Under the pieces are notes generated by a model, which ran no database searches, was not told where the DNA came from, and saw nothing but the letters and a program-made list of their open reading frames with translations. The position numbers and the translations under genes were made by a program. DNA of 64,000 nt from a virus. The stretch's first letter is position 1; every line of letters begins with the position of its first letter. Of the stretch, positions 3,108-7,005 are shown piece by piece. Location: IMG/VR virus record IMGVR_UViG_3300046171_000193, positions 1-64,000 of that record; one strand, given 5' to 3'.

Positions 3108-3269
3108 ATGTTATATATTAAAGACATCATGGCGCTACTAAACTGCGATATAGAAAAAGCAAATAAAGTATTCGATAATATGGTACTTGATTTTTCACAA
3201 GCAAGTACAATGCAATTTAATAATGAAGTATTAATGGTTAACGAATTAATGGAACAAGGAGTTATATAA
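3108..3269 (+). CDS. Small hypothetical early protein (53 aa)
   Basis: A 53-codon gene directly downstream of a strong early promoter, with GAAAGGA 8 bases before the ATG. The protein is helix-prone (ALLNCDIEKANKVFDNMVL). Its stop TAA shares the A of the next ATG, so it is coupled to the DUF932 gene. Confidence 0.7.
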   Translation: MLYIKDIMALLNCDIEKANKVFDNMVLDFSQASTMQFNNEVLMVNELMEQGVI

Positions 3270-3991
3270 TGTCACATGAAGTAGAAACAATGGCTTACGC
3301 AGGTGAGCTTCCATGGCACGGTCTTGGAACAGAAGTTAGCAATGAATTAACACCATTGCAAATGATGCAAAAAGCTGGAGTCGACTGGGAAGTCGAACAG
3401 CAAAAAATCGTTACCGAATCTGGTCTCGAAATCAATGACAAGGTTGCTCTTGTCAGAACCTCAGACAATACTTTGCTTGACGTAACTGGCAAAGATTGGA
3501 AGCCAGTACAGAACGAAGAAGCATTTACTTTCTTCTCAGAGTTTGTTGCTGCTGGTGATATGGAAATGCATACAGCAGGATCTTTGAAAGAAGGTCGTAA
3601 TGTGTGGGCTTTGGCAAAAGTCAAAGAGTCTTTTGATGTGTTCGGTGAAGATCGTGTTGACTCATATCTGCTCTTCTCAAATCCACATCAGTATGGAAAA
3701 GCAGTAGACGTACGGTTTACTCCAATTCGTGTTGTATGTAATAACACATTGACTTTCTCTTTACAGTCTGCTTCAAAGAATTCTGTCAAAGTTGGTCACC
3801 GTACAGCATTCGATGCTGATACTGTAAAAGAAACTCTTGGTCTTGCTTCTGAAAAGTTTGCTAAGTACAAAGAGATGGCTCAGTTCTTAGGCTCTCGTAA
3901 AGTTACCGCAGAGGCTCTTATCCAATATTACAACGATGTGTTTCCAACTACATCTCGTAAAGAAGAGAAAACTCCGGTTGTAGGTTTATGA
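3269..3991 (+). CDS. DUF932 (phage/plasmid TIGR03299-like) protein, N-terminal part
   Basis: The 240-residue product begins with MAYAGELPWHGLG, the usual opening of DUF932 proteins found on phages and plasmids, and continues with the family core (RFTPIRVVCNNTL). It stops at TGA 3989-3991, just before the conserved C-terminal region, which is found in the +1 frame at 3996-4220. Any shift must happen between 3984 and 3991 because the +1 frame has a TAG at 3981-3983. The family's function is unknown. Confidence 0.85.
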   Translation: MSHEVETMAYAGELPWHGLGTEVSNELTPLQMMQKAGVDWEVEQQKIVTESGLEINDKVALVRTSDNTLLDVTGKDWKPVQNEEAFTFFSEFVAAGDMEMHTAGSLKEGRNVWALAKVKESFDVFGEDRVDSYLLFSNPHQYGKAVDVRFTPIRVVCNNTLTFSLQSASKNSVKVGHRTAFDADTVKETLGLASEKFAKYKEMAQFLGSRKVTAEALIQYYNDVFPTTSRKEEKTPVVGL

Positions 3992-3995
3992 CGAC

Positions 3996-4220
3996 ATGTC
4001 AAAAGCTGCGAAGATGTGTTACGATGCTCTTGAGGTTCAGCCAGGTGCACAGTTTGCCGCAGGTACATGGTGGCAAGCATTCAACAGTGTAACTTACTAC
4101 ACTGATCACTTACAAGGACGAAACTCTGAGAATCGTCTTCACAATCAGTGGTTTGGTTACAATCAAGCCAAAAAAGTAACTGCGGCGGAGAAAGCAGTGG
4201 CATACGCCACTGCTGCCTAA
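3996..4220 (+). CDS. DUF932 protein, C-terminal part in the +1 frame
   Basis: The 74 residues from the ATG at 3996 contain AAGTWWQAFNSVTYYTDH, the hallmark C-terminal region of DUF932/TIGR03299 proteins. It is displaced by +1 relative to the upstream part, five bases after that part's TGA. It could be made separately, be the product of a +1 frameshift, or reflect a one-base insertion in a T-run (GGTTTATG). There is no obvious ribosome-binding site before 3996. Confidence 0.75.
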   Translation: MSKAAKMCYDALEVQPGAQFAAGTWWQAFNSVTYYTDHLQGRNSENRLHNQWFGYNQAKKVTAAEKAVAYATAA

Positions 4221-4223
4221 ATC

Positions 4224-4697
4224 ATGTCGAACCAAAAACTTTGGAAGAAGGTAAAGAAAATGGATCTAGGAAATCCCGTAATTACCGCTCTCGTTGGACT
4301 GGTAATTTTTTATATTGGCCTCAAAACTTTCTCAGGAGGTATGAAGTCGATGGGTAATATGGACCACCTACAATTCTTTTTAGGTAATCCAATATACATG
4401 TTTATCGGCGGAATAGTCATGACTCTCTTATGGCAATCGTCATCACTATCAACCACTGCGATCATTGCATTAGTTGCTTCAGGAGCGTTACCGCTGCCAG
4501 CTGCAGTTGCTGCAGTTCTCGGAGCTAACATTGGAACGACTGGAACCATATGGCTTGCAGGATTCTTTGTATCTGATGGTTGGCCAAAAGGTGATACCTT
4601 ACGAATAGCTATGGCACACACTGGAATGAATCTGACAATGGCATTAATGTTACTGCCTTTTGTTGGACATATAGCAAAGTTTCTCGGTAAGTTCTAG
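4224..4697 (+). CDS. Single-repeat Na+/phosphate cotransporter-like membrane protein
   Basis: The 157-residue hydrophobic protein shows the Na/Pi cotransporter (PF02690) hallmarks QSSS (71-74) followed by TTAII, and GANIGTTGT (100-108). Full-length NptA/YjbB-type transporters contain two such repeats and are at least 300 residues, so this has one repeat and would need to dimerise, or to act on the host transporter. Several membrane segments are evident (about 17-35, 57-70, 80-105, 130-150). It lies directly after the DUF932 gene and before a strong terminator. A role in phosphate uptake during infection is inference. Confidence 0.78.
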   Translation: MSNQKLWKKVKKMDLGNPVITALVGLVIFYIGLKTFSGGMKSMGNMDHLQFFLGNPIYMFIGGIVMTLLWQSSSLSTTAIIALVASGALPLPAAVAAVLGANIGTTGTIWLAGFFVSDGWPKGDTLRIAMAHTGMNLTMALMLLPFVGHIAKFLGKF

Positions 4698-4722: not shown

Positions 4723-4747
4723 AATGCGGCTTCGGTCGCATTTTTTT
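4723..4747 (+). terminator. Rho-independent terminator
   Basis: An 8-bp stem AATGCGGC/GTCGCATT closed by a TTCG tetraloop is followed by seven T. It ends the DUF932 and transporter transcript and its T-run abuts the next promoter. Confidence 0.92.
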
Positions 4748-4748
4748 A

Positions 4749-4777
4749 TGTACTTCTTCTTGAAAGTATGGTACAAA
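4749..4777 (+). promoter_or_regulatory. Early-type promoter (variant)
   Basis: TGTACT at 4749-4754, a 17-nt spacer and TACAAA at 4772-4777. It starts immediately after the T-run of the terminator and serves the G-depleted gene. Confidence 0.65.
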
Positions 4778-4805
4778 GGTTATATCAGTCAAAAAGGAGA
4801 AATAT

Positions 4806-5021
4806 ATGACTTATACACTTATTAACCACACTAACTACAACCAACCACTATCTTTTAATACTATTCCTCAAATCATTAAACATATCAAATCACTTAAACT
4901 TCCATCTACTACCGATTTTCTAATCTTCCCTCCTCATAACCCTCAAACATCTATCTTTTTCAATCTAACACTTTCACAACTAATCGACTTATACAATAAC
5001 CATCCAAACGAATTATTATAA
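4806..5021 (+). CDS. G-depleted small hypothetical protein
   Basis: The 71-residue protein starts after AAAAAGGAGAAAT and lies behind its own promoter. The 216-base coding strand contains only four G (in the start codon and in codons at about 4913, 4985 and 5010), although C is abundant. The protein accordingly has no Gly, Ala, Val, Arg or Trp, one internal Glu, two Asp, Lys only as AAA, and no G-ending codons after the start. No domain is recognised. The composition is unlike every neighbouring gene and looks selected. Confidence 0.75.
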   Translation: MTYTLINHTNYNQPLSFNTIPQIIKHIKSLKLPSTTDFLIFPPHNPQTSIFFNLTLSQLIDLYNNHPNELL

Positions 5022-5081
5022 TATAATTCTAACACATTTTTTTATGTACAAACCCTTTAAAATGTGTTAGAATTGTATTAT
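5018..5081. repeat. 23-bp inverted repeat enclosing a promoter
   Basis: Bases 5018-5040 pair with 5059-5081 over 23 bp with a single T-G wobble (5024/5075), leaving an 18-nt loop that contains the -35 box. The left arm begins inside the stop-codon region of the G-depleted gene; the right arm carries the -10 box. Read-through RNA would fold it into a long hairpin ending just before the ribosome-binding site of the gene at 5097. Confidence 0.85.
5045..5073 (+). promoter_or_regulatory. Early-type promoter inside an inverted repeat
   Basis: TGTACA at 5045-5050, a 17-nt spacer and TAGAAT at 5068-5073. The -35 box lies in the loop and the -10 box in the right arm of the inverted repeat 5018-5081. 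Confidence 0.8.
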
Positions 5082-5096
5082 GAAAAGGAGAATAGC

Positions 5097-5282
5097 ATGA
5101 TTATAGTTAGAGATATACAAGACGCAATGACAATGAAAAAGAAATTGTCTAGTCTAGCTCGCAGAGCTCATAATTACAACAAGACTCGTACTTCGATTGT
5201 CATCGAATTGTATGAGCTTTGTGAAGAACTGGAAAAGAATATTGAACGCGAAGAGCGTAACATAGAAGCGGAGGTAATATAA
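5097..5282 (+). CDS. Small helical hypothetical protein (61 aa)
   Basis: The start at 5097 follows AAAAGGAGAATAGC; an upstream in-frame ATG at 5064 lies inside the promoter and is rejected. The protein is highly charged and helix-prone (EELEKNIEREERNIEAEVI), suggesting a coiled coil. The stop overlaps the next start (TAATG). No family is recognised. Confidence 0.7.
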   Translation: MIIVRDIQDAMTMKKKLSSLARRAHNYNKTRTSIVIELYELCEELEKNIEREERNIEAEVI

Positions 5283-5625: not shown

Positions 5626-7005
5626 ATGGCTACGTTTAAAGATATGAGTAGGCGCGAATGGGAAAAAACCGTAAGCGGAAGCTCTGTTTCAAGAAGAGAT
5701 GTATTTGTAGATGCAATAAAAGCTGGAGATCCTGTCAGTGATATAGATGGTAACGATGTTATTATTGCAAACACAAAAGATAATATTGATGCATTAGATT
5801 TCTATTTACAATCAGAACCTGGAAAAAGAGGTAAAGACTTCTTTATTTTAAGTAAAAAAGACGGTGGAGTAATACAGTCTAATAAAATTGGTAAATCGCC
5901 TTTGTTTGGTGGTGCTGGAACTGGAGGAGGCGCAACAGGAAAGACTGCTCAGGCAGAATCATTGCAATGCATTTATATAGCTGCTATGCTAGGAGAAGGA
6001 AGTAGAAATGAGTTTTCTCATTTTACTTATGAAACATTAAAAGGTTATTCAACAAATGTTTCAGTAGACGTATCCTTTGACGATTATATGTCTCTTGATG
6101 GCGATTGGCATATGTCATCTTATCTTATTGCTAAAGCATTAATCAAAGCAAAATATGTAACTAGTCGTCATACTATTCACCGCGGTGATGCCTTAATGGA
6201 ATCTATTTACAAAGAAAAAGATAGAGTCAGAAAATTAGAAGGTAAACCACGTCTAGATAATGATAAATGGAATCCAGGTGATATATGGGCAGTTAAGTCT
6301 GGAACAAATCCGAAGATAATTTTTTCGAAAGCAAAAACTTTAGAAGAACTTAATGTCTTAATTAAAAAACATTTTATCGATAGATCTATTGTTGGTATTT
6401 CTCTCAAAAAGGTTGCAGCAAATAAACGAGTAAAAATCTCTGAATATAATATAGAAGTCAAAGAACAAGATAAACATACGTTTACAGGTATAACTCTTGA
6501 TACTGCAGGAAAAGGAGTATTCTCATCTAAATATGGATTCTTTATTTTTGATAGAACTAAGAAGGCTGAAGTTAGATCACCTAATGTTTTCTCTGCTTTA
6601 AATATGGAATTAAAAGGAGTTAGAGCAAAAGGCGGTAGAACCGGATATGGACAATTAATATATTCTGCAGGTGTCCATTTAAAAAAGGTTTTACCACCAA
6701 ACACAGATCTTGTGACTAAAGCAAAAATATTAGGAGGAGCTAAACCTCCTAATATGATGGTAAATGATTTTTTTAATCTTATTAAAAAGATACATCCGAA
6801 TACGGAGCGAGTAGAATTTGAGTCTCAAATGAAATCAAAAAACGCAGGATTCATTCACGCTCTTTACGCTGCAGCTCATGTTGGTGCAGCACTAATGGCA
6901 GCTACTAAAACACAAAGAGATAATTTTACATCAGAAATAGTAAGTGTTATGGCAGCAAAAACAGCAGAATCTTCTGCTTATGTAAAAGCAGAAGAAAAAG
7001 GATAA
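5626..7005 (+). CDS. Hypothetical late protein, possibly nuclease-like
   Basis: The 459-residue protein starts after TATGAGGTAAAT and follows a late promoter. Residues around 215-270 contain WNPGDIWAV and, further on, IVGISLKKV, an arrangement seen in some PD-(D/E)XK nuclease-like phage proteins (DIW as acidic strand, SLK as lysine strand); this is a weak resemblance. A Gly-rich linker (GGAGTGGGATGK, about 95-106) separates an N-terminal segment, and the C-terminus is Ala-rich. It could equally be a virion protein. Function is unassigned. Confidence 0.6.
   Translation: MATFKDMSRREWEKTVSGSSVSRRDVFVDAIKAGDPVSDIDGNDVIIANTKDNIDALDFYLQSEPGKRGKDFFILSKKDGGVIQSNKIGKSPLFGGAGTGGGATGKTAQAESLQCIYIAAMLGEGSRNEFSHFTYETLKGYSTNVSVDVSFDDYMSLDGDWHMSSYLIAKALIKAKYVTSRHTIHRGDALMESIYKEKDRVRKLEGKPRLDNDKWNPGDIWAVKSGTNPKIIFSKAKTLEELNVLIKKHFIDRSIVGISLKKVAANKRVKISEYNIEVKEQDKHTFTGITLDTAGKGVFSSKYGFFIFDRTKKAEVRSPNVFSALNMELKGVRAKGGRTGYGQLIYSAGVHLKKVLPPNTDLVTKAKILGGAKPPNMMVNDFFNLIKKIHPNTERVEFESQMKSKNAGFIHALYAAAHVGAALMAATKTQRDNFTSEIVSVMAAKTAESSAYVKAEEKG

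Follow-up and report, generated by a model that had tools for sequence, protein, structure and literature searches.

A small gene of marine T4-like phages that stays nearly free of guanine across wide divergence

Transcribed DNA without G is familiar from the G-less cassette, which is an artificial tool for in vitro transcription and not a natural gene, and we know of no natural gene that stays free of one nucleotide across wide divergence. Our literature searches for G-free genes, which had partial coverage with most subscription journals outside it, returned nothing relevant.

Several described systems resemble this gene in part. T4-type phages have shuffling cassettes named PeSL, for promoter early stem-loop (Arbiol 2010, Comeau 2014, cited in PMC4503421). 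Their early genes are, like the present one, short optional ORFs between recurring terminator-promoter junctions that occur at several genomic places, are present or missing at the same site and are exchanged between identical flanks. They are not known to lack a base, whereas here G is nearly absent from the ORF and, in one clade, also from the beginning of the gene that follows. A reduction of mRNA structure near the starts of genes has been reported for bacteria and dsDNA viruses (PMC3072339). It is alike in pointing to selection for an open message, but is limited to the surroundings of the start codon, while here the whole ORF is involved and the protein is altered. Transcripts without the motif of an mRNA interferase, such as messages recoded to lack ACA under MazF, are comparable in that a message may be spared by a missing nuclease feature; in those a short motif is missing, while here it is a whole base, and no matching nuclease was found. 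The rut sites of Rho are C-rich, G-poor and unstructured (C>G bubbles, PMC9160355), as is the RNA considered here, but this ORF is translated, with its protein under purifying selection and its fourfold sites without clear C enrichment.

A shuffled cassette in a T4-like phage

The window, that is, the whole stretch of DNA that was analysed, is the first 64 kb of a virus record of 151,681 bp. The closest matches to the DNA polymerase of this record come from phage C48C1 (57% identity) and from T4-like cyanophages. The source of the gene is a marine T4-like phage. One member of its family, also G-poor, was found on a phage contig in a Hellea MAG, which is no more than a hint at the host. The gene lies in a compact cassette with the following features.

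4723-4747, plus strand: intrinsic terminator AATGCGGC-TTCG-GTCGCATT followed by a T-run (terminator scan, alignment)
4749-4777, plus strand: putative early promoter, with -35 TGTACT (4749-4754), a 17-nt spacer and -10 TACAAA (4772-4777), read from the sequence
4794-4799, plus strand: Shine-Dalgarno sequence AAGGAG, conserved in sequence
4806-5021, plus strand: the G-depleted gene, 71 aa, predicted beta-alpha-beta-beta-alpha fold, dN/dS 0.07-0.34 in its family
5020-5079, plus strand: 21-bp inverted repeat directly after the stop, with arms 5020-5040 and 5059-5079
5045-5073, plus strand: next promoter copy, TGTACA-17-TAGAAT, which precedes a small gene (5100-5282) of normal G content

The terminator ends the upstream gene and abuts the promoter, forming a PeSL-like terminator-promoter junction. 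The corresponding hexamers in homologues are TGTACA (-35) and TAGAAA or TATAAA (-10). The consensus promoter scan listed only the copy at 5045-5073 and not the one at 4749-4777, and promoters of the same kind stand before other genes of normal G content (1807, 5041 and 41811). If transcription starts near 4784, the predicted start, the leader is about 22 nt long. The inverted repeat is the only strong RNA hairpin of the message (z -4.4), overlaps the promoter-like element of the next gene, holding both of its hexamers, and is kept after the stop in L002, at another genomic place. From this arrangement the gene would be separately transcribed, with early timing.

The cassette was observed at at least four genomic places and is G-free at each of them. 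In L019, a near-identical phage, it is absent, and a single terminator-promoter junction connects the same flanks. L025 shows an exchange confined to the ORF: its promoter, leader and terminator are nearly identical in sequence to those of L005, and a remnant of the old ORF, its final bases (CTATTGTAA), was left behind the new stop codon. Thus, as in cassettes of the PeSL type, a promoter of early type (by its predicted timing) directly follows an intrinsic terminator and precedes the gene, and the gene is shuffled among places and phages through such junctions. A Na+/Pi cotransporter-like membrane protein gene (4224-4697; PF02690, E 8e-16) lies upstream in the window and is kept beside the cassette site in L019 and L025.

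Searches of Pfam, PHROGs, NCBIfam and PDB with the protein gave nothing above cut-offs. A match to the FNIP repeat (E 0.004) fell below the curated cut-off and is likely due to composition, and a match of the L086 homologue to phrog_718 (E 0.14) was treated as noise. Fold searches for this family, here called family A (70-71 aa), returned weak matches only (ERH, GYF and AcrIF9, Z at most 4.6). The 60-aa protein exchanged into L025 belongs to another family, B, for which fold searches also gave weak matches, to common ferredoxin-like arrangements. Profile comparison of the two families found no significant similarity; both have the same predicted order of elements, beta-alpha-beta-beta-alpha. 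The family A product is predicted to be a small folded phage protein under purifying selection.

Guanine depletion in the gene and its homologues

The 216-nt ORF contains 80 A, 61 C, 4 G and 71 T. One G is in the start codon and the other three are the first bases of GAT (D37), GAC (D61) and GAA (E69), so that codon positions 2 and 3 hold no G after the start. Across the whole 64 kb, windows of 216 nt contain 43 G on average (sd 8), and the next-lowest window that does not overlap the gene contains 18. Among 201 non-overlapping ORFs of the full record, the gene has the lowest G content (1.4%, where the mean is 20.5%, sd 2.8). Third-position G, which averages 14% (sd 4) over the ORFs of the record, is 0 in this gene. 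Only 3 codons have G at position 1 or 2 where 29 were expected. Given the amino acids that are used, 6.0 NNG codons were expected from synonymous usage and none was observed (P about 10^-2.9). C is not merely retained but raised, to 28% compared with 16.6% in coding sequence. Strand skew was excluded because the neighbours on the same strand have 19-25% G, and an assembly artefact was ruled out, as the same gene occurs in many independent contigs from many metagenomes. The claim of the earlier note that the depletion is real and does not reflect AT bias is supported, and per-gene G content over the record, a check that the note had proposed, showed no other gene sharing it by simple strand bias.

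The rarity of such a sequence was also evident outside the record. Windows of 180 nt with at most 5 G and at least 12% C, searched in 220 loci (2.56 Mb), were found, among the matches listed, only in these genes and in one pyrimidine-rich tandem repeat (L180). The pattern of GGAG, 3-9 bases, ATG and 98 bases without G occurred in none of 385 genomes of the bacterial class of the MAG that bears a family member. A 63-base version of the pattern recovered only family members from 40 phage records, and other G-free genes were found neither in these 40 records nor in 150 kb of phage C48C1.

About 20 loci in IMG/VR carry homologues, which form two clades with 55-60% amino acid identity between them; this is a small set with few independent lineages. 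All members that were read over their full length contain between 1 and 5 G beyond the start codon (0.5-2.4% G; a single one in L086), with 0-2 G at third positions. Between clades dS is 1.6-2.2, near saturation, and dN/dS is 0.14-0.24, while within clades dN/dS is 0.07-0.34; therefore the protein is under purifying selection, and substitutions have struck its third positions repeatedly. These changes avoided G. The 27 variable third positions of the nearer clade comprise 14 of C and T, 7 of A and T, 4 of A and C, one of A, C and T, one of C and G, and none of A and G, whereas 32-34% of the synonymous third-position differences in flanking genes of the same phages involve G. Homologues with normal G content, which the earlier note had named as what would overturn its view, were found neither in five family-directed scans of IMG/VR nor by tblastn in the phage collection; the depletion is thus kept despite drift, at near-saturated dS. 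These results strongly support that something selects against G in this message.

Two further observations show at which level the selection acts. The family B ORF that replaced the gene in L025 has 2.3% G and no third-position G, where 5.7 were expected. In L184-L189, the depleted stretch continues beyond the gene: only 2-3 G occur in the spacer behind it, of which two belong to the Shine-Dalgarno sequence, and the next ORF has 1-2 G in nucleotides 4-66 and is normal in the rest. In L184 itself, this second gene of the operon (6239-6430) is G-free only in its first approximately 20 codons. From the depleted third positions, the G-poor swapped ORF and the continuing stretch, it follows that selection acts on the RNA or the coding strand, and not only on the protein. 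Family B relatives elsewhere (L193-L198) have 5-7% G and are structured, with 3 third-position G where 5.4-5.8 were expected. Because they use third-position G near expectation, the full depletion is tied to the cassette and the phage group and not to the family B protein, and their combination of low-G amino acids with near-normal third-position G is perhaps a relaxed or ancestral state.

Message structure and candidate causes

RNA without G forms neither G-C nor G-U pairs, and the computed structure of the message is correspondingly slight. Folded over its full length, the ORF has a minimum free energy between 0.0 and -1.1 kcal/mol in the window, L086, L182 and L184, compared with -8 to -15 kcal/mol for recodings with genome codon usage. 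In a comparison of 190 ORF starts, that of the window ORF has the least structure. An unusually unstructured message, which had been offered as one reason for the depletion, is a computed consequence of it. When synonymous codons were shuffled with fixed codon counts, z was +0.05 for the window, -0.84 for L007, -1.23 for L086, +1.75 for L182 and +1.83 for L184, that is, additional avoidance of pairing beyond codon counts was not consistent across the five family A members shuffled. NNY codons end in C in 52% of cases, compared with 46-70% in the major capsid gene and 27% in the genome; this bias, shared with the capsid gene, suggests strong translation.

We consider selection for an early mRNA that is always open to be the most likely mechanism, and favour it tentatively. 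Without G the message would stay open along its whole length, with no hairpin within it. The start codons ATG, GTG, TTG and CTG all contain G, and a G-free message would therefore lack start codons and ribosome-binding sites in its interior, leaving ribosomes a single site at which to begin. A message of this kind would load and run on ribosomes at once, even while structured messages are handicapped early in infection, and G would be retained only where function demands it. The observed distribution agrees: G persists in the Shine-Dalgarno sequence and the start codon, in the codons of a few acidic residues, and in the stems of terminators or hairpins, among them the 3' hairpin. We infer that open structure would be the selected trait. 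Against this, the same promoter also stands before other early genes that show no depletion, complete absence of G would not be needed for open structure alone, and the low structure is possibly a by-product of losing G because shuffles with fixed codon counts show no consistent extra effect. The structured family B relatives with near-expected third-position G (L193-L198) also speak against it.

More broadly, there may be a natural class of protein-coding genes from which one base is excluded, in which a phage marks or shields a chosen early message by omitting G and keeps it as the sole readable one while a G-dependent process (a nuclease, an RNA modification or a structure-dependent shut-off of translation) disables other RNA; we regard this as possible, though doubtful. 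The G-free gene is a ready-made probe for a process in infected cells that targets either G in RNA or the structure of RNA, strongly enough to reshape a protein. It would also provide a natural rule for designing messages that can still be translated in a hostile cell.

The depletion could also reflect escape from an attack on RNA that requires G, by a ribonuclease of host defence or phage or by an RNA-modifying toxin, which a message nearly free of G would survive. The product would be needed just while the enzyme acts, or could serve as an antidote to it or even be that enzyme. G is shunned at every codon position and also in the spacer, with no consistent selection against pairing, as a base-specific enzyme predicts, and ribonucleases with base or motif preference exist: RNase Y prefers cutting after G (PMC4608709), T4 RegB cuts GGAG (PMC3014915) and MqsR is reported to cut GC (PMC9636575). 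The removal of MazF sites by recoding is reported to protect a gene (PMC5414051). No relatives of RegB (PF10715) or of RelE/ParE (PF05016) were found in the phage record, and none of 41 genomes of the suspected host class, which is the class of the one MAG that bears a member, contained RNase Y. Most Shine-Dalgarno sequences of the family keep GGAG, so an enzyme with that cleavage site would not spare the message. For RelE and YoeB, cleavage falls between the second and third bases of the codon in the A site and gives no call for the loss of first-position G. No partner gene is constant across the loci. Escape from a G-specific ribonuclease, as the earlier note had proposed, stands as a candidate, and we judge an attack of this kind to be unlikely as the cause.

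It is improbable that the G-free, C-containing RNA is selected as the ligand of a single-strand RNA-binding protein, above all Rho, serving as a decoy or as a translation-coupled switch. With 25-31% C and 0.5-2.4% G over about 210 nt, the RNA fits the description of rut sites, as a C-rich, G-poor and unstructured stretch of at least 70 nt. Rut sites are untranslated or poorly translated, with termination downstream, whereas this ORF is translated under purifying selection, and translation of the region would shield the RNA from Rho. Moreover, C is not clearly enriched at fourfold sites (1 of 28 in the window, 0-20% in other members, 8% in the genome), and its excess sits in NNY codons, as in other strongly expressed genes.

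A cause at the level of DNA seems quite improbable. G depletion of the message is equivalent to a template strand nearly free of C, and such a template could make transcription indifferent to modified or damaged C; alternatively, a strand-specific process of G-to-A mutation could act here. A carbamoyltransferase-like ORF (92557-94389, our own reading) and a QueC-like gene could join in DNA modification, and the related phage C48C1 has an annotated carbamoyltransferase. However, G-to-A mutation would lift third-position A, which is 33% here and 35% genome-wide, and would not lift C; the promoter just upstream and the hairpin downstream keep their G, and the depleted state persists at different places and in different phages. 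Selection on the complementary C-free strand, another reason put forward earlier, found no support, as the antisense strand has no long conserved frame and its folding is not unusual.

Chance or ordinary composition (AT richness, strand skew or unusual amino acid content) has a negligible probability and is already refuted, for although low-G amino acids explain part of the depletion through the scarcity of codons with G at positions 1-2, the gene ranks first of 201 ORFs, lacks third-position G, has kept this state through saturated synonymous divergence, and has no counterpart to its GGAG-spaced ATG and 98 G-free bases in the 385 genomes of one bacterial class.

Several minor observations were made on the surroundings. 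The QueC-like protein is short, is encoded at 1174-1776 on the minus strand of the window, carries the PP-loop SGGIDS and a Cys-rich motif, and is possibly a 7-deazaguanine-related enzyme. The tRNA-Arg gene (anticodon TCT) at 2326-2402 is the only tRNA gene found in the record, and also the only near-identical DNA match to cultured phages when the first 20 kb of the record were searched. The DUF932 gene at 3269-4220 has one extra base at 3982 that splits its frame and that may be an error of sequencing or a mutation that arose recently in this record; intact copies of 316 aa are present in L001 and L008. The major capsid gene (G000, 110764-112097; L014) is represented by two ORFs with overlapping partial matches, a pattern that suggests a frameshift, an insertion or a local duplication. 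In L184, an ORF downstream of the second gene of the operon (about 6435-6830) encodes an HELVH motif, typical of zinc proteases.
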